The notes beneath the pieces are model-generated. The model was given only the letters and a program-made list of their open reading frames with translations, did not search any database and was not told the DNA's origin. From Thalassotalea sp. PS06 (GTDB lineage: Bacteria > Pseudomonadota > Gammaproteobacteria > Enterobacterales > Alteromonadaceae): a DNA stretch of 64,000 nucleotides. Positions 3,623 through 45,606 of the stretch are shown piece by piece. The stretch is taken from NCBI RefSeq assembly GCF_007197775.1, contig NZ_CP041638.1:2170001-2234000 (forward strand). Reading direction: 5' to 3'. Both the position numbers and the translations under genes were made by a program. Position 1 is the stretch's first letter. Every line of letters starts with the position of its first letter.

Positions 3623-3654
3623 GTTTCTACTCTATCTATTCAGTTAGCTAGCGC

Positions 3655-4788: not shown

Positions 4789-4906
4789 TTTAACCTCCAT
4801 AGTGAAGAAATAGTCTATAACTGTTAAATACTGTGCTTTCCCAAGCAGATTTAACAATTATTGAGCGGATTTAATGCCAAAAGCTAATTTTTGGCAAATT
4901 CCGCGC

Positions 4907-4935
4907 ATTTTACGCGTTACAGAGCAATCCGTCTA
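4907..4935 (-). promoter_or_regulatory. Candidate carAB promoter
   Basis: On the minus strand a TAGACG -35-like hexamer (4935-4930) is separated by 17 bases from TAAAAT (4912-4907), about 120 bases upstream of the carA TTG. An inverted repeat GCCAAAA-N6-TTTTGGC (4875-4894) lies in the leader. It matches no operator I recognise, so arginine or pyrimidine control is not shown. Confidence 0.4.
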
Positions 4936-5003
4936 TAACAAATTAAAACTAATTGGCAGTTTCAGCTGAAAAACTTATCTAAACCGTCAAAAACAACAAT
5001 TAT

Positions 5004-5807: not shown

Positions 5808-5951
5808 TGATAATCCTTGTTTAAATCTGCGGCTTAACGTGCCGCTATCAAAATTCTATTTATTGCCGTAGTTACCGTAATCAGGCTCAAACTTATATCG
5901 CTCAAGCCGGGGCAAATAGTCTTCTGAATTTATTTGCCTTTCACTAAATAC

Positions 5952-5979
5952 AAAAAAGCCGGGAAAACCCGGCTTTTTC
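5952..5979 (-). terminator. Rho-independent terminator downstream of fklB
   Basis: Perfect stem AGCCGGG-AAAA-CCCGGCT flanked by A and T runs. It sits 5 bases after the fklB stop on the minus strand and, being symmetric, could work in both directions. Confidence 0.85.
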
Positions 5980-5983
5980 AATA

Positions 5984-6604
5984 TTAAAGGATATCCAGCA
6001 GTTCCACATCGAACACTAAGGTTGCATATGGAGGGATAGCACCTTGAGAACCACGCTCACCATAAGCTAGGTTGTATGGTACGTGTAAACGCCACTTTGA
6101 ACCAACAGGCATCATTTGTAGTGCTTCAGTCCAACCAGCGATTACGCCGTTAACTGGGAATTCTGCAGGTTGACCGCGATCGTAAGAGCTGTCGAATACT
6201 TTACCATCAGGGAAAGTACCGTGGTAATGGGTACGAACTGTGCTGTCAGCGCTTGGCTTGTCACCGTTACCTTCAACAAGGATTTCAAACTGAAGACCAG
6301 ACTCAGTTACGCTTACTTCGTCACGCTTAGCGTTTTCTGCAAGGTAAGCTTCACCAGCTGCAGCTGCTTCTTTGGCTGCCGCCGCTTCCTGCTCCTGAAG
6401 TTTCTGAGAAACAACAGTGAAAGCTTCTTGCAAATCTTCCTGGCTTACTGCACTCGCAGCACCGGCTAAAGCATCAGCAATACCCGCTTGTACTGCTGCT
6501 ACGTCAAATTCTTTAAACGGGTTGTTACGTAACTGATCACCAAGTTGACGACCAACACCGTAGCTAACACGTTGTTCAATAGACTCAAATTTATTTTCTG
6601 ACAT
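5984..6604 (-). CDS. fklB: FKBP-type peptidyl-prolyl cis-trans isomerase (FklB/FKBP22)
   Basis: A prolyl isomerase of the FKBP22 class, 206 residues. The N-terminal part (1-95) is the dimerisation region with the family signature YGVGRQLGDQL and an Ala-rich helix. The C-terminal FKBP domain (about 95-206) holds the active-site segments GTFPDGKVFDSSYDRG, VNGVIAGWTEALQMM and YGERG...IPPYATLVFDVELL. No signal peptide is seen, so it is probably cytoplasmic. It is a single-gene unit with its own terminator. Confidence 0.95.
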   Translation of the reverse strand: MSENKFESIEQRVSYGVGRQLGDQLRNNPFKEFDVAAVQAGIADALAGAASAVSQEDLQEAFTVVSQKLQEQEAAAAKEAAAAGEAYLAENAKRDEVSVTESGLQFEILVEGNGDKPSADSTVRTHYHGTFPDGKVFDSSYDRGQPAEFPVNGVIAGWTEALQMMPVGSKWRLHVPYNLAYGERGSQGAIPPYATLVFDVELLDIL

Positions 6605-6729
6605 GATAGGTTCTTCTATAAAAAATTCGCCGGCAAGCTTAGCATATCCTCACTTATCTCAACAGACCTTTTACTAAAGAAATATAAGGTAATATGGCAA
6701 AAGGTCAGATCAAAAGGTGATTAAATATA

Positions 6730-7566
6730 TTATTGTTTCGACTTCTTCGGTGTTGGGATTTTTGGCTTCGGACATTGCGGGCGAACCGATGCCGAGGCAT
6801 ACATAGGTTCTGACGTTTGCAGATGCTTGCTAAGATTGTCGATTCGAGTTTGATTCGATGGGTGAGTCGATAACCACTCTGGTGGTTCACCACCACCAGC
6901 TTTGGCCATATTGCGCCATAGTGCCACGGACTCTTTCGGATCGAAGCCAGATTTTGCCATTAAGTCCTGACCAATGATATCCGCTTCGGTTTCATGGGTA
7001 CGACCATAGGGCATTAAGATACCGTATTGCACGCCAATACCCATACCCGCCATGATCAGCGCTTTATTATCTACGTCACTAAGCGCCAACCCGGTACCTG
7101 CAACCGCCAGACCAATTTTACTGATTTGATCTGAACTTAATCGCTCGTTTGAGTGCTGGGCAATAACATGCCCTACTTCATGGCCAACAATCGCGGCCAG
7201 CTGACCGGCATTATCGGTAACTTGCAAAATACCGGTATAAACACCAATTTTGCCGCCAGGCAAGGCAAAGGCATTGACCATATCTGAGTCAAACACCACC
7301 ACTTCCCAGGTGCCCTGATGGACGCTGGAGTCAACATTTACGGTGATTGCATCGGCAACACACTGAACAAACTTGTTAACCGCAGGATCCGTTGAAATCG
7401 TCTCCTGTTTTTTCATTTCATCGAATGAGCGAGCGCCCATCTGATTTAATTCATCGGGAGAATGCATCAATAGCTGACGTCGGCCTGTAGGCGATGTGCT
7501 ACATGCCGTGATGAAAGCGGCAATAAACAAGGTTAGTGCAAGTGTTTTTTTGGATTGAAGTAACAT
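6730..7566 (-). CDS. M48 family metalloprotease, lipoprotein
   Basis: A zinc protease of the LoiP/BepA-like M48 group, probably tethered to the periplasmic face of the outer membrane. The signal peptide ends in a lipobox with Cys22 (ITAC). Zinc site HEVGH is at 129-133, with the third ligand in HETEAD (about 191-196). A basic, Pro/Lys-rich tail ends the 278-residue protein. Family members cut misfolded envelope proteins; that role is inferred here. It is monocistronic as far as can be seen. Confidence 0.92.
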   Translation of the reverse strand: MLLQSKKTLALTLFIAAFITACSTSPTGRRQLLMHSPDELNQMGARSFDEMKKQETISTDPAVNKFVQCVADAITVNVDSSVHQGTWEVVVFDSDMVNAFALPGGKIGVYTGILQVTDNAGQLAAIVGHEVGHVIAQHSNERLSSDQISKIGLAVAGTGLALSDVDNKALIMAGMGIGVQYGILMPYGRTHETEADIIGQDLMAKSGFDPKESVALWRNMAKAGGGEPPEWLSTHPSNQTRIDNLSKHLQTSEPMYASASVRPQCPKPKIPTPKKSKQ

Positions 7567-7903
7567 TCCGGTGTTTGTCCTTTGCTGGCCATGATGGTTG
7601 TTAAGTTATTGTAAAACTCTGATTTGGATTCGCCAAGCGATAAATCGCCTCTTTTATCATCTACTGCACTCTCGCGGTATTCACTACAAAACCCTGATGC
7701 CACAAATACCCAATGGAAACTGCACTGCTGTTAAAGGAGCTATACTGGTTAAAGCAGAGGGTGTTTTATGGAAGATTGCTGATCCTTGCCTATACTTGAA
7801 CACCCGAGCAAGAAAATTGTTTTCAATTATCAGAGCAAAGGATTCTCTAGGTATTGATATCCGATACCACTGAACGGCTCATTAAGGATAAAGGAATAAG
7901 AAT
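7567..7903. other. Intergenic region between divergent M48 protease and VOC genes
   Basis: This 337-bp stretch should hold the divergent promoters for both genes. A plus-strand open frame across it has no ribosome site and no recognisable content. The only clear element is an AAGGA ribosome site just before the VOC gene start. Confidence 0.5.
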
Positions 7904-8317
7904 ATGCTGACACCTCAACATATCGATCATATCGTCCTCAACGCCCAGCAATCACCGCAGGAAATGCTGAATTTTTATTGTCAGGTACTCGGTTGCGTGG
8001 TTGAACGCCAGGAACCAGAATTTCACTTAACCCAATTACGCGCGGGTTTTTCTATCATAGATCTACTCACCGGCCCAGACTCAAAAAATCAGGTGAAAGA
8101 GCCCAATGGCAACGCATCCCGAAATGTAGACCATTTTTGCCTGACCGTTAACGAAACCATCGATGACCAGTTGCTAACCTGGTTTGCCGACCATGGTGTT
8201 GAATGCTCCGACATTCACGATAACTACGGTGCGCAAGGGTTTGGCGAGTCGGTATATATCAAAGATCCGCTAGGTAACACTATTGAGATCAAAACCATGA
8301 AACCAGCACCACTTTAA
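7904..8317 (+). CDS. VOC (glyoxalase/bleomycin-resistance fold) family protein
   Basis: A 137-residue single-domain vicinal-oxygen-chelate protein. Metal-ligand-type positions are visible: His near the N-terminus (QHIDHIVLNA), a second His in the central half (RNVDHFCLTV) and the C-terminal DPLGNTIEIK motif. It resembles the small dioxygenase/lyase-like VOC proteins found in many proteobacteria; the substrate cannot be told. An AAGGA ribosome site precedes the ATG. Confidence 0.9.
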   Translation: MLTPQHIDHIVLNAQQSPQEMLNFYCQVLGCVVERQEPEFHLTQLRAGFSIIDLLTGPDSKNQVKEPNGNASRNVDHFCLTVNETIDDQLLTWFADHGVECSDIHDNYGAQGFGESVYIKDPLGNTIEIKTMKPAPL

Positions 8318-8340
8318 AATCCTATCATTATGGTTTTTCT

Positions 8341-8364
8341 GGCCGCGTTCAGGCGCGGCCTTGT
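8341..8364 (+). terminator. Hairpin after the VOC gene
   Basis: Perfect 7-bp stem GGCCGCG-TTCAGG-CGCGGCC, followed only by a short T-rich stretch (TTGTT). It is a plausible but weak terminator. Confidence 0.5.
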
Positions 8365-8406
8365 TACCTTAGCCCGAGACTATCCTTAACACCTTTGTTA
8401 ACGCCA

Positions 8407-8435
8407 TTCCTATATCAACGGCTTTGCTTTATAAT
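8407..8435 (+). promoter_or_regulatory. Candidate ybiT promoter
   Basis: A perfect TATAAT at 8430-8435 lies about 40 bases before the ybiT start. The -35 position (TTCCTA at 8407, 17-base spacing) is poor, matching three of six. Confidence 0.45.
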
Positions 8436-8473
8436 GCGCGCAATTTTTTGGCTCTAACCTCAGGATTCGTGCA

Positions 8474-10063
8474 TTGATCACCACAGCTAACATCACCATG
8501 CAATTTGGTGCGAAACCACTTTTTGAAAACATCTCCGTAAAATTTGGTGGCGGTAATCGCTACGGCCTTATCGGCGCTAACGGTTGCGGCAAATCAACAT
8601 TCATGAAGATACTTGGTGGTGATTTAGAACCCAGTGCCGGTAATGTCTCCGTTGATGTCAATGAGCGTGTCGGTAAACTTCGACAGGACCAGTTTGCGTT
8701 TGAAGAATATTCGGTAATCGATACCGTGATCATGGGTCATACTGAGCTTTGGGCGATAAAAGAAGAACGTGATCGTATCTATTCTTTACCGGAAATGAGT
8801 GAAGAGGATGGCATGAAGGTTGCCGATTTAGAAACCCAATTTGCGGAGATGGACGGTTATACCGCAGAAAGTCGTGCCGGTGAGTTATTAATGGGTGTAG
8901 GTATTCCAATTGACCAACACTTTGGCCCGATGAGCGAAATTGCTCCCGGTTGGAAACTTCGTGTGTTACTGGCACAGGCACTGTTCTCAGACCCAGATAT
9001 TCTGTTACTGGACGAGCCTACCAACAACCTGGACATTCATACTATCCAATGGTTAGAAGAGATTCTTAATGAAAGAAATTCAACCATGATTATTATTTCT
9101 CACGATCGTCACTTCTTAAACAGTGTTTGTACTCACATGGCGGACTTGGATTACGGCGAGTTGCGCGTTTATCCGGGTAATTACGATGAGTACATGCTTG
9201 CAGCGACTCAAGCACGAGCTCGTCTAATGGCGGATAATGCCAAGAAGAAAGCGCAAATTTCTGAACTTCAGGAATTCGTGCGTCGTTTCTCAGCCAATGC
9301 CTCGAAAGCAAAACAGGCAACCTCCCGTGCTAAGCAAATCGATAAGATTCAACTGGATGAAGTTAAGGCTTCATCTCGTGTGAATCCATTTATCCGCTTT
9401 GAGCAGGAAAAGAAACTATTCCGTAATGCCATTGAAATTGAAAACCTGAGTAAGTCTTTCGATGCAGACATTATTTTCAAAGACATTAACCTAATGGCAG
9501 AAGTTGGCGAAAAGATTGCGGTCATCGGCGAAAACGGCATTGGTAAAACCACCTTCCTGCGCACCCTAATGGATGAGCTGCAGCCAGAAGTAGGTGAAGT
9601 TAAATGGTCTGAAAATTCCAATATTGCTTATTATGCTCAGGATCACGCCGAGCTGTTCGAGCAGGATATGACGTTATTTGACTGGATGAGTCAATGGAAG
9701 AACCCAGGCGATGATGAACAGGTAGTGCGTGGATTCTTAGGTCGCCTATTATTCTCACAAGACGATATCAATAAGTCGGTAAAAGTACTTTCCGGTGGCG
9801 AACAAGGTCGTATGCTTTTCGGCAAAATGATGATGCAAAAACCAAACATTCTGGTAATGGACGAGCCGACCAACCATATGGATATGGAATCGATCGAATC
9901 GTTAAACATCGCTCTGGAAAAATACGAAGGCACATTAATTTTCGTCAGTCACGACCGTGAATTTGTATCTTCTCTGGCAACTCGCGTGCTTGAGCTTAAA
10001 GGCGATCACTATGTAGATTTTGCCGGTGGTTATGAAGAATATCTGGCCAGCCAGGATAACTAA
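8474..10063 (+). CDS. ybiT: ABC-F family ATPase YbiT
   Basis: A soluble ABC-F protein, with two nucleotide-binding domains and no membrane part; the family acts on the ribosome as translation factors. It has 529 residues. NBD1 has Walker A GANGCGKS (34-41) and Walker [13 protein letters not shown] (D180/E181). The Lys/Arg-rich inter-domain linker (about 240-310) is followed by NBD2 with [17 protein letters not shown] and [10 protein letters not shown]. The sequence matches E. coli YbiT along its full length. The start is TTG ([12 protein letters not shown]), preceded by AGGA 8 bases upstream; no in-frame ATG or GTG would restore the expected N-terminus. Confidence 0.95.
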
Positions 10064-10084
10064 TCAATAGCAATAATTGATAAT

Positions 10085-10112
10085 AAAAAGGAGTCGTAAA
10101 GACTCCTTTTTT
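10085..10112 (+). terminator. Rho-independent terminator of ybiT
   Basis: Stem AAAAGGAGTC-GTAAA-GACTCCTTTT followed by T residues, about 20 bases after the ybiT stop. Confidence 0.85.
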
Positions 10113-10234
10113 GTTTTAAATCAACATTTATAATTTAAATCAGAGGGTTAGAAAATATATTTCATAAACACTTGTCAACATATCTTAAATGGGAGTAAGC
10201 TGAAATTAACTCGAAAGAAACATTAAGGTGGTTG

Positions 10235-10654
10235 ATGAGCGAAAACAAAACCCAGTTAACAGACCTTAATCCCGATACCTTTATCGCTGCTATCGAACAT
10301 TCGGTAAAACGCCAGGACAGCGAGCAACTACTACAACTTTTTGCAGCCATCACCAAACAAAAACCTCAACTTTGGGGAACTTCCATCATAGGCTTCGGTC
10401 AATATCATTACCGCTATGATTCAGGACGTGAAGGAGACTTTCTAAGGACCGGCTTTTCGCCTCGAAAACAAAATATCGCGATTTATATTATTCTCGGCTT
10501 TCAACCTTACCAGGATTTACTGGCGAAATTAGGAAAGCACAAAACAGGAAAATCCTGTCTCTACATTAATAAATTAGCCGATATCGATATTGAGGTTTTA
10601 AAGCAGTTAATTGAAAAAAGTTATCAGGATATGGCAGAAAAATATCCTTTATAA
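10235..10654 (+). CDS. DUF1801 domain-containing protein
   Basis: A 139-residue cytoplasmic protein of the YdhG/DUF1801 fold, recognised by LWGTSIIGFGQYHYRYDSGREGD, the aromatic segment after it and KSCLYINKLADID. Its function is unknown. The start is the ATG at 10235, with AAGGTGG 4 bases before it; a TTG one codon upstream is disfavoured. Confidence 0.85.
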   Translation: MSENKTQLTDLNPDTFIAAIEHSVKRQDSEQLLQLFAAITKQKPQLWGTSIIGFGQYHYRYDSGREGDFLRTGFSPRKQNIAIYIILGFQPYQDLLAKLGKHKTGKSCLYINKLADIDIEVLKQLIEKSYQDMAEKYPL

Positions 10655-10780
10655 ATCAAAAGCTAACAAAGAGGAAAACCACTAACTCTCACTAATTATA
10701 AATTTTTACCCTATCTAAGCTTGTAAGGTCGAATCATCGTCCCCATGCTTATTATGAAGACTCGAAAAAAGGAGAGCTGT

Positions 10781-11119
10781 ATGAAAATAAATATTTCAGG
10801 CCATCATGTAGAAGTAACCGAGGCTATCGCCGATGTCATTCATAGCAAATACGCTAAAGTCGGTAACCACTTTCCCAGCCTTATGTCTCTGGATATCATT
10901 TTAAAGGTTGAAAAAAACATCCAAAAAATCGAAGTCACTACTCTGTACGAAAATGTGAAAGTTTCCATTACTGCCGTTGCCGATGATATGTATAAAGCAA
11001 TTGGCAATTCCGTCAAAAAGCTTGAATCTGCCCTTGCCCATCGCAAAGGGGTGATCAATGCGAATCTGCACGATAAGTTTGAGGTTCAGGAACAAGAACT
11101 CGTCGCGCAAACCCACTAA
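10781..11119 (+). CDS. hpf: Ribosome hibernation promoting factor (HPF/RaiA family)
   Basis: A 112-residue short-form hibernation factor that binds the 30S decoding region and stabilises idle ribosomes. The typical opening MKINISGHHVEVTEAI, the LKVEK strand and the DMYKAI-N-LESAL helix are clear; the C-terminus is short, without the long-HPF dimerisation domain. The frame is open upstream, but the ATG at 10781 has a very good AAAAGGAG site 6 bases away. A bidirectional terminator follows. Confidence 0.9.
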   Translation: MKINISGHHVEVTEAIADVIHSKYAKVGNHFPSLMSLDIILKVEKNIQKIEVTTLYENVKVSITAVADDMYKAIGNSVKKLESALAHRKGVINANLHDKFEVQEQELVAQTH

Positions 11120-11134
11120 CGCTTAATTTAACCA

Positions 11135-11170
11135 GAAAAAAAAGAGCATCACATTGATGCTCTTTTTTAT
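11135..11170. terminator. Bidirectional terminator between hpf and the DEAD-box helicase
   Basis: Long A run, stem AAGAGCATC-ACATT-GATGCTCTT, long T run. It lies between converging genes and has U-tracts on both strands. Confidence 0.85.
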
Positions 11171-11235
11171 TATCTGGAATAAAGCAATGCTCTTAACTCT
11201 GAATTCTGCTGTCTGCCGTCTGCAATCTTTCGTTT

Positions 11236-12564
11236 TTATTCCGAATCTTCCGTATACTCGCCAGGTTTGCGGCGCATAACCGGCATATCGCCAATATCTT
11301 CGGCTTCATGGAATATCCGTTTCTTCGGTTTCGCCTTAGGCTTCGCTGCCTTTTTCTGCACAGGTTTGGCGTCATGACCTTTCTGATCCGGTTTGCGTTT
11401 TGGTTTTGGCTTCACGCCTTTAAACTTTGCTTCAAAACCTTCGATAACGCTAAATTCAATCGTCTGTTGTAAAAACGCCTGAATATTTAAGTAACTCTGC
11501 CAATCTTTAGGGCCGATAAACGAGATAGCATCACCCTTCTCGCCCGCACGACCGGTACGGCCGATACGATGTACGTATTCTTCCGGATGCTTGGGTAAAT
11601 CAAAATTGATGACATGGGAAACATTAACCAAATCCAGACCGCGAGAAGCCAGATCCGTGGTTACCAGAACCTTCGCCTGCCCTTTCGCAAACTGCTCCAT
11701 AATGCGATTGCGATCCGCTTGTTTTAAATCACCACTTAAGGCCAATGATTCAATACCTTGTTCCTGCAAAAATACCGCCAGACGCTCGGTATCCGCGCGG
11801 GTTGCAGTGAAGATAATCATCTGCTGGAAGGATTCATTGGCAAGCAAATGGTTTAGCAGTGCTTCTTTATGATCAAGATGATCACTTAACACAAAGCGCT
11901 GATGGATGTCTTTGTGCTCAGAGGTGATTTCGCCAACGGCAATTCGCTTCGGTTTATTTAGCAAATCCAGAGCAAAGTCTTCAACTTGTTGGTGATCCAT
12001 GGTTGCCGAGAACATCAATGTTTGACGTTTGCGGTGATCAGCTGCCTGATGAATGCGTTTTAGTTGGTCGGCAAAGCCTAAATCCAGCATACGGTCTGCT
12101 TCATCAAGAATAAGCAGTTCTAAGCCGTGTAAGTAAAAATGCCCCTGATCGAGGTGGTCGGCTAAGCGACCTGGCGTTGCCACAATAATATGCGGTTCAC
12201 GGGATAAGACTTTCACTTGATCATTAAAATTCTCGCCGCCAAGAATTAATACCGATTTAAACTGAGTGCCGGAGCTAACCAAACGCAGTTGGCTAAATAC
12301 CTGCTTTGCTAATTCCCGGGTTGGCGTCAGGATGACCACGCGCGGATCACGTTTTGCCAACGCTCTTTGGCGAATTAAACGGTGTAACGCTGGCAACAAG
12401 AACGCCAGGGTTTTACCAGAACCGGTTTTTGAGGAAGCGATAAGGTCATTACCTGCCATTGCCGCAGGTATCGCCTGTTGTTGAATGTCCGATGCCTTTT
12501 CAAAGCCCAAATGGTCAATGGCTTTGACTAATCGGTTATCCAGATTAAATTGATCAAATTGCAA
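11236..12564 (-). CDS. DEAD-box ATP-dependent RNA helicase (SrmB-like)
   Basis: A 442-residue RNA helicase. The Q motif (LGFEKASDIQQQAIP) and motif I SSKTGSGKT are at about 20-52; PTRELA, the TPGR motif, DEAD, SAT, the ARGLD-type SRGLD and HRIGRTGRAG follow in the right order. The C-terminal 70 residues are a Lys/Pro-rich basic tail expected to bind RNA. Family members remodel rRNA during ribosome assembly or mRNA during decay. Overall layout and the basic tail resemble SrmB, but RhlE cannot be excluded. It lies 102 bases downstream of gltX on the same strand. Confidence 0.92.
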   Translation of the reverse strand: MQFDQFNLDNRLVKAIDHLGFEKASDIQQQAIPAAMAGNDLIASSKTGSGKTLAFLLPALHRLIRQRALAKRDPRVVILTPTRELAKQVFSQLRLVSSGTQFKSVLILGGENFNDQVKVLSREPHIIVATPGRLADHLDQGHFYLHGLELLILDEADRMLDLGFADQLKRIHQAADHRKRQTLMFSATMDHQQVEDFALDLLNKPKRIAVGEITSEHKDIHQRFVLSDHLDHKEALLNHLLANESFQQMIIFTATRADTERLAVFLQEQGIESLALSGDLKQADRNRIMEQFAKGQAKVLVTTDLASRGLDLVNVSHVINFDLPKHPEEYVHRIGRTGRAGEKGDAISFIGPKDWQSYLNIQAFLQQTIEFSVIEGFEAKFKGVKPKPKRKPDQKGHDAKPVQKKAAKPKAKPKKRIFHEAEDIGDMPVMRRKPGEYTEDSE

Positions 12565-12604
12565 AAATCTATATTCCTTACACTAAGAGTGTTTTCATTA
12601 AAAC

Positions 12605-12637
12605 TAACGCACGAGGCATGAAACAGGTCGTGCGTTA
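12605..12637 (-). terminator. Stem-loop downstream of gltX
   Basis: A 10-bp perfect stem TAACGCACGA/TCGTGCGTTA with a 13-base loop, 30 bases after the gltX stop. The minus-strand tail (GTTTTAATG) is only moderately U-rich. Confidence 0.5.
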
Positions 12638-12666
12638 TCATTATTATACTATTTAAGAGTGTAGGC

Positions 12667-14076
12667 TTACTGCTGAGCTCTTGCATCAATAAAGGCAATC
12701 GCCTTTTCAATGCGAGTTTGCACTTGTGCAGGCTCAAGCAATGCCAGGGTTACATCCAATGATGGAGAATTACCACCACCAGTAGAAGCTACACGCAATG
12801 GCATACCCACTTTACCCATGCCCACTTCAAGCTCTTCTGCTGTGCCATTAATTGCCGCCTGAATATTCTCAGGTGTCCAATCACTAATGGCTGCAAGCTT
12901 GGCCTTAACAAGCTCAAGTGGCTCTTTAGCCACACCGCGAAGGTGCTTCTTCGCCGCTTTCTCGTCAAATTCCTGATACTCTTCATAGAAATAACGGCTG
13001 ATTTGCGCCATTTCTTTCAGAGTTTTCACACGATCTGCCTGAACCTTAACAACGTCCGAAAGAGCCGGACCATTGTCGGTGTTAATGCCCTGCTCGTTCA
13101 TGTGCCATTGTAGGTGGCTGGCAACGTATTCTGGATCCAACGACTTCATGTAGTGCTGGTTTACCCAAATCAGCTTTTCGGTATTGAACGCAGACGGCGC
13201 TCGGTTACAACCTGATAAGTCAAACAGCTCAATCATCTCTTCACGAGAGAAGATTTCCTGATCGCCATGGGACCAGCCAAGGCGTACTAAATAGTTAAGC
13301 AGGGCTTCTGGCAGGTAACCGTCATCACGATACTGCATTACCCCAACGGCGCCGTGACGCTTGGATAAACGCTTACCATCATCACCCAGAATCATCGGGA
13401 TATGAGCGTATTTCGGCAGTGGCGCGCCAAGGGCATTTAGAATGTTAATTTGACGAGGCGTGTTGTTAACGTGGTCATCACCGCGGATAACATGGGTAAT
13501 TTTCATATCCCAGTCGTCAACCACAACCGTTAGGTTATAGGTTGGAGAACCATCAGAACGGGCAATGATCAAATCATCCAGCTCCTGGTTAGAGATTTCG
13601 ATATTACCTTTTACCAGGTCTTCAATGATAACCGAGCCATCTAATGGGTTTTTAAAACGGATTACGTAAGGCTTGTCTTCAGGGTAATCGGTGCGATCAC
13701 GCCACATGCCGTTATAACGCGGCTTTTCACCTTTAGCGCGCTGTTCTTCACGCATGGCTTCAACTTCTTCCGGGGTACAGTAACAACGATAGGCCTGGCC
13801 GTTATCGATTAACTGTTGAATCACTTCTTTGTAGCGATCAAAGCGCTTAGTTTGAAAATATGGACCTAAGTTCCAGTCAAGGTTCAACCAGTTCATACCG
13901 TCCATAATCGCATCAACCGATGCCTGAGTTGAACGTTCTAAATCCGTATCTTCAATCCTAAGCACAAAATCACCGCCATTCTTTTTGGCAAATAACCAGC
14001 TATATAGGGCTGTACGGGCACCACCAACGTGCAAGTAACCAGTTGGGCTTGGTGCAAAACGGGTTGTTAAAGTCAT
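12667..14076 (-). CDS. gltX: Glutamate--tRNA ligase
   Basis: GluRS charges tRNA-Glu. The protein has 469 residues, normal length. The class I HIGH-like motif is [11 protein letters not shown] (9-19) and the KMSKS-like motif is KRLSKRHG (about 238-245). A CYC cluster ([11 protein letters not shown]), zinc-region like, is present near residue 98. The C-terminal anticodon-binding helical domain is complete. The upstream 600 bases on this strand carry hairpin arrays rather than another gene. Confidence 0.97.
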
Positions 14077-14177
14077 ATTTATCTCACTAACAAAGTCTCT
14101 GCCCCTAACATATTGCTGCGGCAGAAAAACACGGAAAAATTTGCGGCATATTTTAGCAGAGGAAGTGAGTAGTTAAA

Positions 14178-14210
14178 ATGTGAAATTTGCCAGGGAGTTA
14201 AATTTCACAT
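14178..14210. repeat. Stem-loop upstream of gltX
   Basis: An 11-bp perfect inverted repeat ATGTGAAATTT/AAATTTCACAT around an 11-base loop, about 100 bases upstream of the gltX start. It opens the hairpin-array region and might lie in the gltX leader. Confidence 0.6.
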
Positions 14211-14215
14211 TAACG

Positions 14216-14680
14216 CAACTGCAAGCGTTGCTGCGGGTACACAATCAGAGATTGTTCCATGTACGTGTCAGAAAACGTCACTTCGAGTACACAATCGAAG
14301 ATTGTTCCGGGTTACCGACATGGACGTTGGTATGCAGAATTTGTCTGGAACCGAAATTCTGTACCCGCGACTCAAAACGTCGCTTCGAGTAAAAAGCAAA
14401 AACCCTCGAGTCATTCCCTGATACTACAGGGAATCTTAGCTAGGGCCGAATGTCTCTGAAGTGCCACAAGCGGGAGTTAAAACTCCCTGAGTACGTATCG
14501 TAAACGATACTCCGAGTATGTGACGTAAAGCGTCACTTCGGGTACACAATCAAAGATTGTTCCGGGTACGCGACAAAAAACGTCGCTTCGAGTAAAAAGC
14601 AAAAACCCAAGTGTCATTCCCAGATACTACAGGGAATCTTGGCTAGAGCCGAATGTCTCTAGTGTGCCAATAGCTGCCGT
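14216..14680. repeat. Array of short hairpins joined by constant linkers
   Basis: About a dozen small perfect or near-perfect palindromes follow one another, separated by linkers of the form TTC(C)G(A/G)GTAC. Examples are ACAATC-GAA-GATTGT, GCGAC-N7-GTCGC, GTATCG-TAAA-CGATAC, GTGACG-TAAAG-CGTCAC, GGGAGT-TAAA-ACTCCC, CAGAATTT-N11-AAATTCTG and ATTCCCTG-ATACTA-CAGGGAAT. Stem sequences differ between units but stay self-complementary. Within it, a unit of about 65 bp starting AAAAAGCAAAAACC and ending GAATGTCTCT occurs twice (14391-14456 and 14595-14661) and once more near 27333. No gene is supported here. Confidence 0.85.
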
Positions 14681-15736: not shown

Positions 15737-15812
15737 TGGTGGACGGTACTGGGCTCGAACCAGTGACCCCCGCCTTGTAAGGGCGGTGCTCTCCCAACTG
15801 AGCTAACCGTCC
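15737..15812 (-). tRNA. tRNA-Val(UAC)
   Basis: A 76-base cloverleaf on the minus strand: acceptor GGACGGT/ACCGTCC, anticodon loop CTTACAA with anticodon TAC, T arm CTGGTTCGAGCCCAG, encoded CCA. It is the last of four identical copies in transcription order. Confidence 0.97.
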
Positions 15813-15919
15813 AGGGAGAAACGCATAAAATTTAGAAAATCCAAATTTTATAAGACTGCAGAGTACAGGTTTCTGAATGCTGTTGTCTGCCATCTGAATA
15901 CTCTCATTAGAAATGAGAA

Positions 15920-15995
15920 TGGTGGACGGTACTGGGCTCGAACCAGTGACCCCCGCCTTGTAAGGGCGGTGCTCTCCCAACTGAGCTAACCGTCC
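15920..15995 (-). tRNA. tRNA-Val(UAC)
   Basis: Identical to the copy at 15737. The spacer between them contains a TCTCATT-N3-AATGAGA hairpin and a CTGTTGTCTGCCATCTGAAT segment that also separates the decayed copies. Confidence 0.97.
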
Positions 15996-16038
15996 AGGGA
16001 GAATACCTTAAGAAGACTCTTAAGATTGAATGCTTAAA

Positions 16039-16114
16039 TGGTGGACGGTACTGGGCTCGAACCAGTGACCCCCGCCTTGTAAGGGCGGTGCTCTCCCAAC
16101 TGAGCTAACCGTCC
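16039..16114 (-). tRNA. tRNA-Val(UAC)
   Basis: Third identical copy, anticodon TAC, CCA encoded. Short spacers of 33 and 43 bases to its neighbours suggest one polycistronic transcript. Confidence 0.97.
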
Positions 16115-16147
16115 ATTTAAGACATTCACAAACAGACCATGAAATCA

Positions 16148-16223
16148 TGGTGGACGGTACTGGGCTCGAACCAGTGACCCCCGCCTTGTAAGGGCGGTGC
16201 TCTCCCAACTGAGCTAACCGTCC
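16148..16223 (-). tRNA. tRNA-Val(UAC)
   Basis: First copy in transcription order, directly behind the promoter at 16240-16267. Its 5' end lies 16 bases downstream of the -10 box, so the primary transcript must have a very short leader. Confidence 0.97.
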
Positions 16224-38429: not shown

Positions 38430-38900
38430 TTAGTCAGGCGAATTACGACTCGTGTTTTGTTTGATTGTCTCATCCAAGTGGCACAAATCACATAGCGTTT
38501 CTAAATTACTCGGTGCATAAAGTAAATAAGTTAATTCAACGGAGCGGTTAATTTCTTCAACGCTTATTTTATGATGAACTTCAACAGCGCGCTTTGAATT
38601 TTTTTGAGGTCCATTGCCGCACCTGACACACAGATAATTATCTCTTTTTAATACTTCTGCCCGAACCTTTACCCACATACCGTGATTCAGCTTACGGGTT
38701 TTGACCTTTGGCTTATATGGCACTTCATGTTGAGCCCGATAAGTTTCAGTTCCTATCTCTGGACCACTAAGCAATACATGTGCCGAGCGGTCCTTACCAT
38801 GGTTTCCAAACCACTCAAAAATAGCTTTATAAGCTCGATTTAGGCTTTTATAGTTTTTAACTTTGTTGCCATCAATTGAGTGAAAAACCGTTCGAAACAT
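38430..38900 (-). CDS. HNH endonuclease, last gene of an SMC-MukEF-like operon
   Basis: A 156-residue protein. The C-terminal half is an HNH nuclease: CVRCG (zinc pair 1), EVHHKISVEEI (catalytic His-His), APSNLETLC (Asn) and CDLCH (zinc pair 2), in the canonical order. The first 70 residues are basic and unfamiliar (SLNRAYKAIFEWFGNHGKDRSAHVLL). Its ATG is 2 bases after the stop of the kleisin-like gene, so it is almost certainly co-expressed with the SMC complex. In Wadjet/MksBEF systems the corresponding nuclease is a TOPRIM protein (JetD/MksG). Plasmid or phage cleavage is inferred, not shown. Confidence 0.9.
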   Translation of the reverse strand: MFRTVFHSIDGNKVKNYKSLNRAYKAIFEWFGNHGKDRSAHVLLSGPEIGTETYRAQHEVPYKPKVKTRKLNHGMWVKVRAEVLKRDNYLCVRCGNGPQKNSKRAVEVHHKISVEEINRSVELTYLLYAPSNLETLCDLCHLDETIKQNTSRNSPD

Positions 38901-38902
38901 AG

Positions 38903-40123
38903 TTAACGCAACCCCAACTCAACGTCTTCAATAATAAAGTTACCGTCAAACTTAGGGTGAGCATGACCGATAGGGTCGAGTTCAAAAAACTCTTGCTCAT
39001 CCTGGTTTAAACCACCAAAGCCGTTAATCACGCCGTAAACCCATACCTCAGGATCATATTCAAGCGATTGTTGTTGATGATATTCCAATGCAGACAGTAA
39101 CTGGCCAGAGTCGATAACCTGACAAAAGTAACTTTCTACGGCTTCCTTCAAACCATCGGATTCAATATCGATAGATTCGATATCTTCTAGCGAAAATTCC
39201 TGCCCTTTACGCAGTTTTTCATTCAATGATTGATTATGTCGAATTTGTTTTAATTGAGAAACGAGCTCCACGTAAACCAGTTCATGCTCGAGATTATTCA
39301 CATCAATACTGGCCGGTTTAATGATCGCTTTCGCCTGATTAAACAGTACAGGAATTTTCGCCTGTTCACTGTAGTCTTTAACCCTATAGTCAGGCTTTTG
39401 TTGCTGATACAGAACAAAACCTTTAAGCAGTTGTGAGCGATGTAGGTACTCTCTGAATTTGCCAAGTAGGTCAATCAGTTTTGCCTGAGCCAGGCTTAAT
39501 TCCTGACTTATTTCGCTATGGCTGCGTTGCAATTGCACAACCAGCAACCGCCTCAATTCCCGAGAATTGCCGGCAAGGTGGGTTAACTCGTCAAACTGAA
39601 ACATTTCCAGTTGTTGACGCATTTGCGTAAGCTGACTTTGAGCGAGTTCATTCTCACGAATTTTGGCACTGATTGAGGCGACATAGCCGAACTCGTTGTG
39701 AATGCGACGCCACAGATTACGGACGCTGGATTTTAAACTATCCACCAGTGTATAAACCTGCTCTGACAAATCCTCCAGGTAAACCTCTGCATCGCCGTAG
39801 GCCTTGTGATGCATACTTTCCTTAAAATGGTTTGTCACCGTTTTGATCGCCGCCAGCTTTGAGCCAATATTGGTATCCAGCTGACGATTTCTCTCATCCC
39901 TTAAGCTGTTCTCCAATAATGCACGAACGGTGGAACGCAGCCTAAGGTCTTCCCCGGGTTCCGGGCGCCATAACACACCCAGTTCAATGAGCTTTTCGAT
40001 AATATTGGGGTCATATTCAAGATCATTAACATGCCCAGATAAATAGGCCTGCATAATAATGTCAGCGTGCTTTGATAGTGCCCGAAGCAGATTAAAACCA
40101 GCGCGTTCTAACTGACTACTCAA
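38903..40123 (-). CDS. MukF/JetA-like kleisin subunit
   Basis: A 406-residue protein with no enzyme motif. The N-terminal part (about 1-75) looks like a winged-helix domain, the middle (75-250) is helical/coiled coil (VYTLVDSLKSSVRNLWRRI, LAQSQLTQMRQQLEMF), and the C-terminal 90 residues are acidic and may form the second winged helix that caps the ATPase head. This is the MukF/MksF/JetA layout, by structure and context rather than close sequence match. The start is TTG at 40123 with AAGGAG 7 bases upstream, overlapping the upstream stop as TTGA. Confidence 0.75.
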   Translation of the reverse strand: MSSQLERAGFNLLRALSKHADIIMQAYLSGHVNDLEYDPNIIEKLIELGVLWRPEPGEDLRLRSTVRALLENSLRDERNRQLDTNIGSKLAAIKTVTNHFKESMHHKAYGDAEVYLEDLSEQVYTLVDSLKSSVRNLWRRIHNEFGYVASISAKIRENELAQSQLTQMRQQLEMFQFDELTHLAGNSRELRRLLVVQLQRSHSEISQELSLAQAKLIDLLGKFREYLHRSQLLKGFVLYQQQKPDYRVKDYSEQAKIPVLFNQAKAIIKPASIDVNNLEHELVYVELVSQLKQIRHNQSLNEKLRKGQEFSLEDIESIDIESDGLKEAVESYFCQVIDSGQLLSALEYHQQQSLEYDPEVWVYGVINGFGGLNQDEQEFFELDPIGHAHPKFDGNFIIEDVELGLR

Positions 40124-40755
40124 AGCAGATCTCCTTGCTTGATGGCCAGCTCTGCCTGTTGCTCAAGTCCAAGCTTTTCCGATTCATCAATAAATCGGAT
40201 CACGTCAAACAAATAATCAATTTTTCCCGTTGCTAAATAGATTTGGTTTTCCGGGTTGGGGCGTAACAGATACCCCGTTTCCACCAATCGTTTAAAAATT
40301 TGTTTCAGTTGCGAGTCAACCGCGGAGCTTGTTGAGTTAAACAGGCTGTATCGGGCAATTTTTGCCAGTTGTTCAACAAATGCCGGTGTATCTTCGATAA
40401 CGGTCTGTAATTCGGTGACACGAATCACCGAACCTTCGGTTAAAGGCGCATTATCTCCTCTTGCTTCCTGAACCAGCACTAGCCATTCAGCCAAGGGCAA
40501 TAACGAATTAGCAATATCTCGAAATTGTGTCGACAACTGCTTACGCTCTTCAGTATCGATAACTTGGTAAGCACTAAAGTACAAGTTACCATCATTGGCC
40601 GTCGCTAGAGTACGATTCATGGTATTGAGCTGACGCTCAATTTCCGCAAAATGTTCGTGGTTTTTCAGATACTGAAATGCAAGTTCGTCACTGGTTTTAC
40701 AGATGAAACCGCCGCTTAGCAGAACTTCCAGCACTCTTCCTTTTAAAGACATCAT
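40120..40755 (-). CDS. MukE/JetB-like subunit
   Basis: A 211-residue acidic, helical protein. The two winged-helix-like segments (about 1-60 with GRVLEVLLSGGFI, and 135-185 with LKQIFKRLVETGYLLRPNPENQIYLATG) fit MukE/MksE/JetB, which bridges the kleisin dimer. The identification rests mainly on size, fold impression and its place between SMC and kleisin genes. Its ATG overlaps the SMC stop as ATGA. Confidence 0.72.
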   Translation of the reverse strand: MMSLKGRVLEVLLSGGFICKTSDELAFQYLKNHEHFAEIERQLNTMNRTLATANDGNLYFSAYQVIDTEERKQLSTQFRDIANSLLPLAEWLVLVQEARGDNAPLTEGSVIRVTELQTVIEDTPAFVEQLAKIARYSLFNSTSSAVDSQLKQIFKRLVETGYLLRPNPENQIYLATGKIDYLFDVIRFIDESEKLGLEQQAELAIKQGDLL

Positions 40756-43700
40756 GCACTCATCTCCTGCTGTTGTTTTTGCTTAAGGCGTGCTGAGATG
40801 GAGTTCACTTTTGGCTGTACCATGCGAAGTTTCTGCTTGCTGGCATTTTTATCAATCAGATAGCGATTTTCAAAAAAGTGCAGCACATCCGACTCGGGGT
40901 TTGGAAACGCCCCTAAAACCGAAATATTGTTGGCCTTACAGGCATCAAATATTTTCTTGACGTTTTTATTCGCCAGAGTACCAATTTCGTCAATCGGCCA
41001 ATGGATGGTGGCCTTAGAATGACCTCGTAGTAATCGGGTAAATGCCAACAGGAACTTACAAAGGATCAGGTAGGCCATACCGTGACTGGACGACTCGTTT
41101 AATTGTCTATCGGTACGGATCACAAGGTTTGAACTTCCTTCTTTAAGATGTAGTTCAATATCCAGTAAATGTCCTACACCACTGCTCATTGTTCCTCGGC
41201 CAAGGACATCTAATACTTCGCGAATGGTTAGCATATATTCTTCATTCGGTAACGATTCATTGTCATCGTTTAGCCAGTCTTTATGCAGTTTATTAAAACG
41301 CAATAACGTAGGCCAGAAGTCAAACTCACTCACTTTAGAGCGGATTTTAACGCTAGAATCACTCACCCCATCAAGAAATAGTTCTTGATCGACTTCTCTG
41401 GAAATTCGCTTCGATTGCGATGAAATGCGCTTGTCGATATCAGCAAGAATATTGTAATACTGAGTCAAATCATTGCCGAAGTTCAGACCATTATTGCGAA
41501 CCCCTTCCAGGTGCTGAGGCACCATCACATTGAGCAGAATATCCAGTTCTTTAACCATTTTCCGACAGTCTAATTTCGACAATCCCTGCTCATTTTCAAC
41601 CTGACAATCGTTACGAGCCCGCTCCCAGGCTTCCGTCAGACTAATCCCCGACTTTTGTGCAATGGCATTATCAAAGTAGTGCACATATTCATCGACATCG
41701 GCTACCGCCTTGCGATGGCGTACGAGTAGATCCTGACCTTCACTGACTCTGGCATTCGCGCTTGCAGTATCAGCAACGTCCACTGCTGTTGGAAGTTTCA
41801 GCAAAGCAAACTGCTGTTTCAGGCTATTAATATTGGTTACCAATTCACGCTGTTCATTAAGCGCCTTTTCTAGCTGTTGCAGTTGTTCATTCAGTTGCCC
41901 TTTTTGTTGCTTATAGGCCGACTGGCTGTTCTCCAAATTGCGTTGCGCCGCGGCAAGCAGTTCCTTAGCTTTTGACAGCTGTTGTAAATGCGTACTCTTT
42001 TTCTTGGTAAATACAACATCGTACCATCGGTCATATTCCCGTACACTGTCACGATGTTTATTGGTTAACTCAATATCATCTTTCAATTGCGCAATGTCCT
42101 GTTTGAGCTTGGCAATCAAATCAACATCAACGTCACGCTTTTCAAGCTCATTCTGATACCAGGCTTTTACCGATTTAAGGCCTTCTTTTAACTGCTGGTT
42201 GCACAGACCGATTTGCTCGTTGATGCTGTTCAGTTGTTGTTCACTATCACCAATCAATTGCTGCCAATGTAGCTCGTGCTCCATTTTTTCTTGATGGCAG
42301 ACATCCTTGTGTTCTTCAAGGGCGTTTTGCTTGTTTAGCTCAAGTTTTTCTAACGCTGTTTGCTCGGATTTTAGCGCCTTTTGAATATGTTGTTTGCGTT
42401 CCTGCAACGCTTGTTTTTGTTCACTTTTCAGTTGTTGTTTATCTTCCTGAGCGCGAATTCTGTCCTGCTGGATAAACTGGCATTTCGATTGTAAGGTAAT
42501 AACATCCTGTTCTCTGGCTTTTGTGCTCTCATTGAGCCCTTGCAATTCTGCAGCTATGGCTAAGCGCTGTTGTTGATATTGTTGCAATTCTTCATTAGCT
42601 GCTTGTAACTGTTTTTCCAAAGCCGCTTGAGATTGCGCAATATCACTTTCCGCGATGACACTGGTATCTAACAACACCCCGAACATCGAATTTTGAGTTG
42701 CAACGCTATCCGCTATTACCGGCGACAAATCCGACCGTGACAACAATTCAGGCGCCAGCAACTTACCAATGTGTTGCTCCCAGCCAGGATGTTCATTTCG
42801 CAAAAACTGTAAAAGGGTATTGTCCTGAGGATTTAACCAGGCGTCGATTTGAGCCACGGTCTGCTCAGCGAGTTTTTCTTTTGCTCGGGCTTTATTTAAC
42901 TTCTCATTCAACGCAATTTGTTGATATTTACATTGCTGCAGTTCTTCCTGAGCCTGCTGCATCTTAGCTCGCAAACTGTCCTCTTCAAGTTGAGCCTGCT
43001 CTATAGCCGCTTCTGCCAGCGCCATTTGTTGTTGTTCTTCAGCCGTTGGCCCACTGTGCTCGATTTGCGTTTTCAGGGTTTGCAGCGTTAATCGCCCCTT
43101 TTGGATCTGGGTATCAAAATCTTCTAACAGAAGCTTTAAGCGCTGTTCCTGCTGACTAAGCAGAGCCTGTAACGCCGCAGATTCTTGCTTTTGCTTTTCC
43201 CGCAATTCAGCCACAACCGCATCTTTTTGTTGTCCTAACTGGTTCAGCTCTCTGCCCTGTTTCTTTTCCAGTTCTGCCAGGCGTTTGTGATAAGCAGCTT
43301 CAATATCCTGATGCTCTTCAGTTAACAAAGCATGCTGTTCGCTCATCGACTGCAATTGAGACTGCCAGGCACTGACCTTATCAAGGTTTAATTTATACCG
43401 TTCGATATCTTTGTCTTGCCAGGTATTGAATTCATCTTCGATGTTATCAAGATGCTTTTCATTGGTATCGATTTCCGCTTTTGCTTGGGAAATATCGCGA
43501 TTCAGGTTGTCACGTTGCTGCTCAAAATCCTGTTTGAGTTCGGTTATTTTCGATTTGTATATTTGTTGATCATTTTCCGCCTTGACAACAGACTCTGCCA
43601 ACATCGAATAGTCATTAGACAGCGATAGTTTCAGTTGCGCTAATCGTTGTTCGGTTTGCTCTAACTGAGAATTAATCTTTTGCAGCTTTTCATATTGCGG

Positions 43701-44435
43701 CATAAGTTCGTCAAATTGCTGAATCAACGAACATTCTTTAATCCAATCTTCTACCTGAGTTTTAGAAATTTTGCTGGTTGGAGTTTGTACACCATCTTCT
43801 TCTAAAATGGCGGCGATCATCGCCTTAATGGTTTCCATTTTCCCTTCTTTAGAGTGGACGGCTTTTATTAACTTTTCGATATGGCGTAGCTTCGCATCGC
43901 TTTCACACAAGCTAAATAACCTGGCCGCATTGACGAGATCACGTTTTGAAGCGGTCGCGTTCATCATCGCTCGATCATTTTGAATTACCGCACGAAACTC
44001 TTTGGTATTTAGTCCTTTGGTCACGTTGTTACCCTGACGCTTAGCGGCCTTAACAACTTCATTGATTGCAATAGAGCGTTTGCCAGCCATGTCATCGGCG
44101 ATAAAGTCGTCAACTACAAACTCTTTGTCGATAAATCGATAAACCACACCAGTAACTGACGAGGTAAGTACCGCCATACAGGTGGTGCCATCAACCCGCT
44201 GGTATTCGTATATGATAAAACTGGACTCGCGCGGCAGGTACCAGGTCTGGAAATTATCCCGGGTTGCAGGTACCACTTTATTTGGCGACTCACCAAAGAA
44301 AACCGGTAAAAGCCTTTGTAATGTTGTTTTACCGGAGGCGTTGGTACCACAAATATTAGTGTGGCCATCGACTTTAAGCTCGACCATACCCGGAAGGTGA
44401 GTATCGATCAGAATGATTCGTTGTAATCCAGACAT
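40752..44435 (-). CDS. SMC/MukB-like coiled-coil ATPase (DUF3584-like)
   Basis: A 1227-residue SMC-type motor. The head's Walker A is GTNASGKTT (30-38), followed by WYLPRESS (65-72); the GKT and YLP pair is the mark of the DUF3584 family. Long Gln/Glu/Lys-rich coiled coils run about 230-530 and 605-930, separated by a globular hinge-like segment (about 532-600, AWLNPQDNTLLQFLRNEHPGW). The C-terminal head has a signature-like ESSSHGMAYL (about 1095) instead of LSGGE, and Walker B HWPIDEIG with Asp1149-Glu1150. It is the first gene of the four-gene operon, which should act on DNA as a loop-extruding or entrapping complex (inference). Confidence 0.88.
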   Translation of the reverse strand: MSGLQRIILIDTHLPGMVELKVDGHTNICGTNASGKTTLQRLLPVFFGESPNKVVPATRDNFQTWYLPRESSFIIYEYQRVDGTTCMAVLTSSVTGVVYRFIDKEFVVDDFIADDMAGKRSIAINEVVKAAKRQGNNVTKGLNTKEFRAVIQNDRAMMNATASKRDLVNAARLFSLCESDAKLRHIEKLIKAVHSKEGKMETIKAMIAAILEEDGVQTPTSKISKTQVEDWIKECSLIQQFDELMPQYEKLQKINSQLEQTEQRLAQLKLSLSNDYSMLAESVVKAENDQQIYKSKITELKQDFEQQRDNLNRDISQAKAEIDTNEKHLDNIEDEFNTWQDKDIERYKLNLDKVSAWQSQLQSMSEQHALLTEEHQDIEAAYHKRLAELEKKQGRELNQLGQQKDAVVAELREKQKQESAALQALLSQQEQRLKLLLEDFDTQIQKGRLTLQTLKTQIEHSGPTAEEQQQMALAEAAIEQAQLEEDSLRAKMQQAQEELQQCKYQQIALNEKLNKARAKEKLAEQTVAQIDAWLNPQDNTLLQFLRNEHPGWEQHIGKLLAPELLSRSDLSPVIADSVATQNSMFGVLLDTSVIAESDIAQSQAALEKQLQAANEELQQYQQQRLAIAAELQGLNESTKAREQDVITLQSKCQFIQQDRIRAQEDKQQLKSEQKQALQERKQHIQKALKSEQTALEKLELNKQNALEEHKDVCHQEKMEHELHWQQLIGDSEQQLNSINEQIGLCNQQLKEGLKSVKAWYQNELEKRDVDVDLIAKLKQDIAQLKDDIELTNKHRDSVREYDRWYDVVFTKKKSTHLQQLSKAKELLAAAQRNLENSQSAYKQQKGQLNEQLQQLEKALNEQRELVTNINSLKQQFALLKLPTAVDVADTASANARVSEGQDLLVRHRKAVADVDEYVHYFDNAIAQKSGISLTEAWERARNDCQVENEQGLSKLDCRKMVKELDILLNVMVPQHLEGVRNNGLNFGNDLTQYYNILADIDKRISSQSKRISREVDQELFLDGVSDSSVKIRSKVSEFDFWPTLLRFNKLHKDWLNDDNESLPNEEYMLTIREVLDVLGRGTMSSGVGHLLDIELHLKEGSSNLVIRTDRQLNESSSHGMAYLILCKFLLAFTRLLRGHSKATIHWPIDEIGTLANKNVKKIFDACKANNISVLGAFPNPESDVLHFFENRYLIDKNASKQKLRMVQPKVNSISARLKQKQQQEMSA

Positions 44436-44656: not shown

Positions 44657-45460
44657 TTAAATAATCCCTAACTCTTTCAATTCAGTGCGAACCGTTTCCA
44701 CTCTCACCTTTTGCACATCGGCGAAGGTTTTCGCATCCATATTAAAAGCAAAGTAAAAAACCTTATTCCCTTTTACCACATAACCCACATACCATCCCAA
44801 AGCTTTGCCTTTCTCAAGCTGACCACCACCAGTTTTGGCATAAAGCTGATATTCAGGTGTTTGTTCTACCAACATGATGTCCTTGAATTTCTTGTAGGTA
44901 TCATCCGCTAGTCCAAGCTTCTGGCGTTGTAACTTTTGCAAAAACTCGATTTGTTCTTTGGCGCTAATGGTAATGCTTTCGTTTAACCAAAAGGTATCAA
45001 TACCTGAGGATATATCTTGATTACCATAAGCAAACTGCTGCAAATAATTTTTCATTACTGGCGCCGATATTTTGGTGGCAATTTCCTGATAAATGGGCAC
45101 CGCAGAATTTTGGAAGGCATCACGGATAACCAAGGGTTCTTTGTACCAGGTTTCCGGCCACCAGCTTTGAATTGGATAGTCTTTTTGATCAAAGGTAAGC
45201 TTTTGTTGCAGGCTGCTAACCACGCCAGTATCTAAGGCAATTAAGGTATTCGGAATTTTAAACGTGGAGAATGGTGTTAATCGCTTCTCTGCCCGCTCAG
45301 GATTGTGCTCGAGAATCGATTGGTTGTCGTCGGTAACGACCAACATAGTGCAGGATTGCCCGCAAGTATCTATCGATGTGGCAAACGCGGATTGGGAAAT
45401 AGCAAAGCTGATAATTATTGTGCTGGCTAGGGTAAAGCTAAGAGAAATAAATTTGCGCAT
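44657..45460 (-). CDS. Class D (OXA-type) beta-lactamase
   Basis: A periplasmic serine beta-lactamase, 267 residues. A Sec signal peptide ends near residue 28 (SAFA). The active site is Ser65-Thr-Phe-Lys68 (STFK), with SAV (119-121), YGN (145-147) and Lys209-Thr-Gly (KTG), all canonical for class D; WYVGYV follows. The overall pattern (STFKIPN, DTFWLN, ISAKEQIEFL) resembles OXA-48-like enzymes of marine gammaproteobacteria. The start was taken at the Met before the signal peptide; the spectrum cannot be told. No transposon or integron structure surrounds it. Confidence 0.93.
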   Translation of the reverse strand: MRKFISLSFTLASTIIISFAISQSAFATSIDTCGQSCTMLVVTDDNQSILEHNPERAEKRLTPFSTFKIPNTLIALDTGVVSSLQQKLTFDQKDYPIQSWWPETWYKEPLVIRDAFQNSAVPIYQEIATKISAPVMKNYLQQFAYGNQDISSGIDTFWLNESITISAKEQIEFLQKLQRQKLGLADDTYKKFKDIMLVEQTPEYQLYAKTGGGQLEKGKALGWYVGYVVKGNKVFYFAFNMDAKTFADVQKVRVETVRTELKELGII

Positions 45461-45606
45461 AGATGATTTGTATCGTTTTTTACAACAAGTTAACATCAAA
45501 ACTCGCGCCGATAAATGGTTATAAACGCCTGTAACCAGCCGAACTGTACAATTTTTAAGCGAAAATTACATTTGGTTAACGGCAATGCAACGCCAATTTG
45601 ATTATT

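Follow-up and report, generated by a model that had tools for sequence, protein, structure and literature searches.

Within a 64,000-nt stretch of DNA from Thalassotalea sp. PS06 (NZ_CP041638.1, positions 2,170,001-2,234,000; this whole stretch is called the window, and all coordinates are positions within it), an operon of four genes specifies an SMC-type ATPase (B), an MksE/KITE-like protein (E), a MukF/kleisin-like protein (F), and a small HNH endonuclease. The operon is best explained as encoding an SMC complex of the MukBEF/MksBEF type, consisting of B, E, and F, with the HNH endonuclease as its cutting subunit. Since HNH and the DUF7281 protein of related operons, a predicted TOPRIM nuclease, exclude each other and either may fill the fourth place, the HNH protein looks like an interchangeable part. 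Probably, it represents an alternative nuclease subunit, provided in cis or in trans, of a system similar to MksBEFG or Wadjet.

The operon and its products

A sequence-only reading of this DNA had described four same-strand genes joined by ATGA and TTGA overlaps and a 2-base gap, and all of these features were found on the minus strand between 44435 and 38430. The ATGA overlap is located at the SMC/E junction, the TTGA overlap at the E/F junction, and the gap separates F from the HNH gene. Pfam matches also confirmed the predicted SMC ATPase and HNH products (Table 1). In B, the Walker A residues G30, T31, N32, G35, K36, and T37 as well as D1149-E1150 of Walker B are invariant among 13 aligned homologues; an SMC ATPase with intact Walker motifs is a feature of Wadjet and MksBEFG. 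E is matched by the MksE family PF21980 above the cut-off, as a MukE/KITE-type subunit should be. F exceeded the cut-off of no Pfam family, and its predicted fold showed a moderate match to MukF. With these assignments, the MukBEF-like core suggested earlier was retained. Many homologues of F carry the name 'phosphoenolpyruvate carboxylase' in NCBI and UniRef entries without any Pfam backing, apparently a propagated misannotation. The same genome encodes ScpA of Smc-ScpAB, and the MukB family PF04310 had no match in the PS06 genome, while the E. coli control was matched. B-E-F is therefore regarded as an additional SMC complex.

The HNH domain of the fourth protein contains all four Cys residues, N132, and H141. 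H110 was assigned by comparison with the V-H-H sequence of locus L044, contrary to the automatic alignment. The N-terminal domain preceding it is common to the HNH family members found in F-bearing genomes. DUF7281 had no match in the PS06 genome; instead of the TOPRIM gene typical of JetD/MksG operons, the HNH gene is present.

Table 1 Features of the operon in the window
Feature	Position	Strand	Evidence
SMC-type ATPase (B), DUF3584, 1227 aa	40752..44435	-	PF12128, 971 bits, full length
Walker A region of B, GTNASGKTT, residues 30-38	44322..44348	-	read from sequence
Walker B end of B, residues 1145-1150, last two D1149-E1150	40986..41003	-	homologue alignment
E subunit, MksE/KITE-like, 211 aa	40120..40755	-	PF21980, 33.1 bits (cut-off 27)
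F subunit, MukF/kleisin-like, 406 aa, TTG start	38903..40123	-	
HNH nuclease, 156 aa, at DUF7281 (TOPRIM) position of relatives	38430..38900	-	PF01844, 24.9 bits (cut-off 21.4)
N-terminal domain of HNH protein, residues 1-56, strand-strand-helix-strand-strand, proposed docking module	38733..38900	-	AlphaFold block, pLDDT 89-96
HNH (zinc, beta-beta-alpha metal) domain, residues 91-145	38466..38630	-	PF01844 match

Exchange of the nuclease gene in place

F is present in all 15 Thalassotalea genomes, but its downstream neighbour differs among them. Intact HNH genes were found in five genomes (G000, G004, G006, G008, and G010), broken ones in two (a frameshift in G014, a remnant in G005), DUF7281 genes in six, and nothing similar in the remaining two. 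HNH and DUF7281 never occur together (0/15; Fisher test, 0.0056). The DUF7281 proteins of these six genomes are 284-297 residues in size (Pfam was run on three of the six), display the TOPRIM pattern E-N ... D-x-D, and yield weak matches to the TOPRIM domain of Spo11/TopoVI-A. JetD models of PADLOC matched three out of five members tested, the best scores, 25.7 bits for JetD2 and 25.0 bits for JetD1, being obtained with different members. DUF7281 proteins thus resemble JetD and are predicted to be TOPRIM nucleases. The claim that HNH stands in place of a JetD-like nuclease was borne out, as close relatives have DUF7281 at that very spot.

Comparison of Thalassotalea sp. ND16A (L041, HNH) with L042 (DUF7281) revealed 90.2% DNA identity across a 5.7-kb segment that reaches to the stop codon of F. 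Beyond it come unrelated nucleases, and the alignment restarts at 86.7% in the next gene. The difference is a swap of nuclease genes in place. In two further pairs, L036/L037 and L033/L035, a remnant or frameshifted HNH gene is opposed to none at the same point. A related picture was obtained with the nearest named relative of the window operon, T. mangrovi ZS-4 (L152), whose SMC, E, and F proteins are 86%, 91%, and 91% identical to those of the window. DNA identity is 77% up to the stop codon of F and the sequences realign past the nuclease, while the HNH proteins are just 40% identical. DUF7281 is also fast-evolving, with 59% identity where F shows 91% (L038, L040). F evolves much more slowly than either of the nucleases.

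The order B-E-F, followed by the nuclease, had been noted before and is kept in the relatives of the window operon. Together with the presence of F throughout the genus and of an HNH gene, intact or broken, behind F in 7 of the 15 genomes, this indicates that the arrangement exceeds chance. In a tree of SMC, E, and F from 36 taxa (FastTree, without support values), HNH operons are nested among DUF7281 operons, and HNH and DUF7281 operons form sister pairs in three cases: L041/L042, L145 (Neiella marina)/L055, and L148 (Shewanella sp. AS1)/L054. In the HNH tree, also calculated with FastTree, L041, L145, L148, and L096 fall outside the main group of Thalassotalea sequences (0.985 support). On these trees, HNH genes were therefore recruited beside B-E-F at least four times, and this occurred at either end of the operon. 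In L148 (the region of G521, L259) and L096 (G097, L324), the HNH gene is located immediately upstream of the SMC gene on the same strand, and G521 and G097 are absent from the profile-match lists of DUF7281 genomes.

Mutual exclusion in Shewanella

All 129 Shewanella genomes contain F. Co-occurrence with F is for this reason uninformative in this genus, and exclusion alone is informative. Full-length HNH genes were detected in 38 genomes, 11 further ones matched the HNH domain only, and DUF7281 was found in 62. Both nucleases are present in four genomes and neither in 33. DUF7281 occurs in 4 of 38 HNH genomes vs 58 of 91 others (Fisher p 1.2e-8); in one of the four, G436, it adjoins a second, divergent F. 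A dependent model of gain and loss was also favored over an independent one when kinship was considered by an F tree (likelihood ratio 37.6, four degrees of freedom, p 1.3e-7; 34.3 and p 6e-7 for intact HNH genes). This test included 127 of the 129 genomes, two partial F proteins being dropped, with a midpoint-rooted tree of F alone, and its p-values are approximate because some rates were at their bound.

DUF7281 directly follows F in 58 of the 62 carriers, and no HNH gene was found in the stretches behind F in Shewanella genomes. Of the 67 genomes missing DUF7281, 51 have a member of a single gene family as the next gene after F (23 of 34 with HNH, 28 of 33 with neither nuclease). As this family mostly follows F when DUF7281 is absent, the operon site appears to be stable, with the nuclease being gained and lost. 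In the 33 genomes with neither nuclease, the stretch shortly after F yielded no third gene family.

HNH genes elsewhere in genomes

A scan of species genomes yielded 61 loci with relatives of the HNH protein. Matches begin at query residue 21 or before, and include most of the N-terminal domain, in 31 of them. B-E-F adjoins the HNH gene in four of these 31 loci; the other 27 are without B-E-F in the flank examined. Such solitary genes often have neighbours that are conserved among related Shewanella species. Their occurrence is nevertheless linked to that of B-E-F.

In a family sample of 395 genomes, 56 had an HNH match. Those 18 in which matches, alone or pieced together, begin in model positions 1-12 were counted as carriers of the HNH family with the N-terminal domain (four copies are broken). 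All 18 have F, compared to 196 of 395 genomes overall (p 2e-6), and none has DUF7281, compared to 78 of 196 F-bearing genomes (p 6e-5); outside the genus, F is present in 11 of 11 HNH genomes (p 2e-4) and DUF7281 in none (p 0.003), all of these p-values ignoring kinship. G177, in which a frame of 387 aa matches model positions 10-137, was excluded as a different protein; if counted, the ratio changes to 18/19. DUF7281 was located directly behind F in 47 of 49 genomes (49 of 81 DUF7281 genomes were examined).

Named carriers outside Shewanella gave the same result, all 12 searched having F, whereas F is missing from all 27 genomes whose HNH-domain relatives are of other kinds. This contrast is confounded by kinship because most of the 27 belong to distant groups. 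The 27 genomes without F include L155, with a match that begins at query residue 27, and the copy in L163 is broken. L152 and 20 of the 61 loci were omitted (the omitted ones include 18 from Shewanella, L181, L186, and L187), and at least five of the 12 carriers also belong to the family sample.

These distributions bear on the possibility that HNH is a selfish or passing gene, for instance a free-standing homing-type endonuclease, that landed by B-E-F without participating, the latter being an accessory condensin that acts on its own. The prevalence of solitary copies (27 of 31 named loci), the frequent decay of HNH genes, and the many operons devoid of a nuclease would fit such a gene. It would not be expected, however, to occupy the exact position of DUF7281, to be recruited by separate lineages at both ends of the same operon, or to avoid DUF7281 genomes while all 18 carriers of the family sample possess F. 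Moreover, the gene neighbourhood of solitary copies is constant among related Shewanella species, unlike that of a mobile gene. This explanation is regarded as quite improbable, and an alternative nuclease subunit accounts better for the data.

Two observations on HNH neighbourhoods may be added. In six Shewanella loci (L140, L141, L143, L144, L146, and L150), the solitary HNH gene is near SbcC-/SbcD-like genes of the opposite strand, an assignment resting on the reading of their first residues, and the neighbours are conserved. The HNH loci L133 (Marinobacter nauticus DP3N21-5) and L147 (Ferrimonas balearica) have neighbouring gene families in common; one of the two names may be wrong.

Plasmid relatives and the question of defence

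Relatives of F with 20-24% identity were detected in nine plasmid records. The fourth gene was DUF7281 in both plasmids in which it was tested, and both are typed as conjugative. On one, the IncC plasmid pVIM-Exn692 of Enterobacter hormaechei (L190), region 1-14239 is arranged WYL - SMC - E - F - DUF7281, with the SMC gene split by an IS256-like element. Genes annotated as nucleotidyltransferase, ThiF, Mov34, and SAVED are close to this operon; their make-up looks like that of a CBASS cluster, which is our own label. DNA methyltransferase genes are near two of the five other plasmid regions inspected. The plasmid context, the fast evolution of the nucleases, and their swapping favor a role of the system in defence.

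Alternatively, B-E-F could be mainly a chromosome-organising condensin similar to MksBEF, for which a nuclease is optional, and HNH or TOPRIM would process chromosomal structures rather than foreign DNA. The universal presence of F in Thalassotalea and Shewanella is in line with this view, as is the gene family behind F in most Shewanella without DUF7281, which is more reminiscent of a core gene than of a defence island. On the other hand, B-E-F is not the sole condensin since ScpA is present, two DUF7281 operon relatives reside on conjugative plasmids, one of them by the CBASS-like cluster, and both nucleases outpace F and get swapped as expected of parts of a defence system. We consider a mainly chromosomal function rather unlikely, yet the least improbable of the alternatives, and prefer a nuclease subunit that would act on foreign DNA.

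Evidence against an HNH subunit

A number of results weigh against the proposed function of HNH, and the kinship among the sampled genomes and the universal F of Shewanella described above have to be counted among them. Intact HNH genes within the operon are rare, just six among the 196 F-bearing genomes of the family sample. In Shewanella, HNH adjoins the operon by coordinates in one of 129 genomes, G521, and there it lies upstream of SMC. B-E-F is kept without either nuclease in 33 of 129 Shewanella genomes. HNH copies are broken in two out of seven cases in Thalassotalea, and 5 of the 38 in Shewanella contain an internal stop. The genome with G177, the extra HNH match outside the definition, is devoid of F. 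Co-occurrence of a solitary HNH gene with F does not prove joint action, and defence systems are rarely as universal as F, which every searched genome of two genera contains.

The window HNH protein itself forms the longest branch of its family in the HNH tree and has an insertion inside the HNH motif; for these reasons, it may be decaying. It could then be a pseudogene in the making, with the operon now a B-E-F operon without nuclease. Its PF01844 score of 24.9 bits, the lowest of the five intact copies of the genus (37-48.5 bits for the others), points in the same direction, and so do the frameshifted copy and the remnant in two other genomes of the genus. Although this is thought to be unlikely for the window copy, it appears less far-fetched than a selfish origin of HNH.

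Relation to known systems

The operon shares with MksBEFG and Wadjet (JetABCD) an SMC ATPase, MukE- and MukF-like partners, and a nuclease gene, and the fourth gene of its relatives is the JetD-like DUF7281. It differs in gene order, B-E-F-nuclease in the window and its relatives versus F-E-B-G in mksFEBG (Weiss et al. 2023, PMC10123090), and in having HNH instead of TOPRIM. The cutting subunit of both known systems, MksG in the case of MksBEFG, is a TOPRIM protein according to the accessible portions of that paper and of a 2023 review (PMC10586767). In these portions, the word HNH is absent from the former and is named once in the latter, among Lamassu effectors. No PADLOC model matched E or F, and the SMC protein matched JetC1 across 40 residues only. 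Since the TOPRIM nuclease and the gene order were looked for and found to differ, membership in Wadjet or MksBEFG is not claimed.

SMC-like proteins and exchangeable effectors, including an HNH domain, are also known from Lamassu (PMC10586767, as far as accessible), in contrast to the separate small HNH protein and the MukE- and MukF-like partners found here. With the four genes, LmuB models of PADLOC reached at most 10.1 bits and LmuA had no match. Lamassu is not known to have MukE or MukF partners. ZorE, the HNH protein of Zorya type II, was the best PADLOC match of the window HNH protein (18.8 bits), but the match covers the HNH region only, and ZorA and ZorB matched none of the four genes at E values up to 1. 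E. coli MukBEF is similar in the predicted fold of F and differs in its MukB family, which is without a match in PS06, and in the nuclease gene attached here.

The sequence-only reading had gone further and proposed a distinct anti-plasmid or anti-phage system in which HNH replaces JetD, naming as evidence to the contrary that homologous operons mostly lack the HNH gene. This is literally what was observed, as most of them have DUF7281 or no fourth gene, and a separate HNH-defined system is for that reason not upheld; the anti-plasmid or anti-phage role is putative. What seems to be new, in the best reading of the data, is an HNH variant predicted to work like MksBEFG/Wadjet. Literature searches, in which subscription papers were largely not covered, revealed no paper on HNH in this role or on DUF7281. 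A preprint checked as a possible precedent (PMC12458937) was unrelated in its accessible part.

Proposed mechanism and implications

The usual fourth subunit in this group of B-E-F-nuclease operons would be the JetD/MksG-like TOPRIM protein DUF7281, whose job HNH has probably taken over in several lineages, encoded either within the operon or at a distant locus. By analogy to JetABCD, the ATP-driven BEF motor would load on DNA and extrude loops. Circular or otherwise recognised foreign DNA could then lead to a state of BEF that recruits or activates the nuclease, bound via its N-terminal domain, and the activated HNH protein would nick or cut the DNA. It is conceivable, and in our opinion somewhat favored, that B-E-F is a fixed DNA-recognising motor with a nuclease socket for which JetD-like TOPRIM proteins and HNH proteins with a docking domain compete. 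HNH could be supplied in trans, and many seemingly nuclease-free MksBEF-type operons would be complete defence systems.

The repeated exchange for an unrelated enzyme in Thalassotalea and its relatives points to a plug-in role of the cutter. If an unrelated nuclease indeed performs the same role, this would suggest that the SMC motor, and not the nuclease, carries target recognition. The exchange would then allow the triggering of a cutter by a loop extruder to be studied in a natural experiment, and defence surveys demanding a TOPRIM gene beside the SMC genes would overlook complete systems with the cutter in trans.

Other genes in the window

Upstream of the operon, a gene on the minus strand (44657-45499) specifies a protein that has an STFK motif and matches PF00905, the transpeptidase domain of penicillin-binding proteins; it resembles a class D beta-lactamase. 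Four tRNA-Val genes (anticodon tac) are arranged in tandem on the minus strand at 15737-16223.

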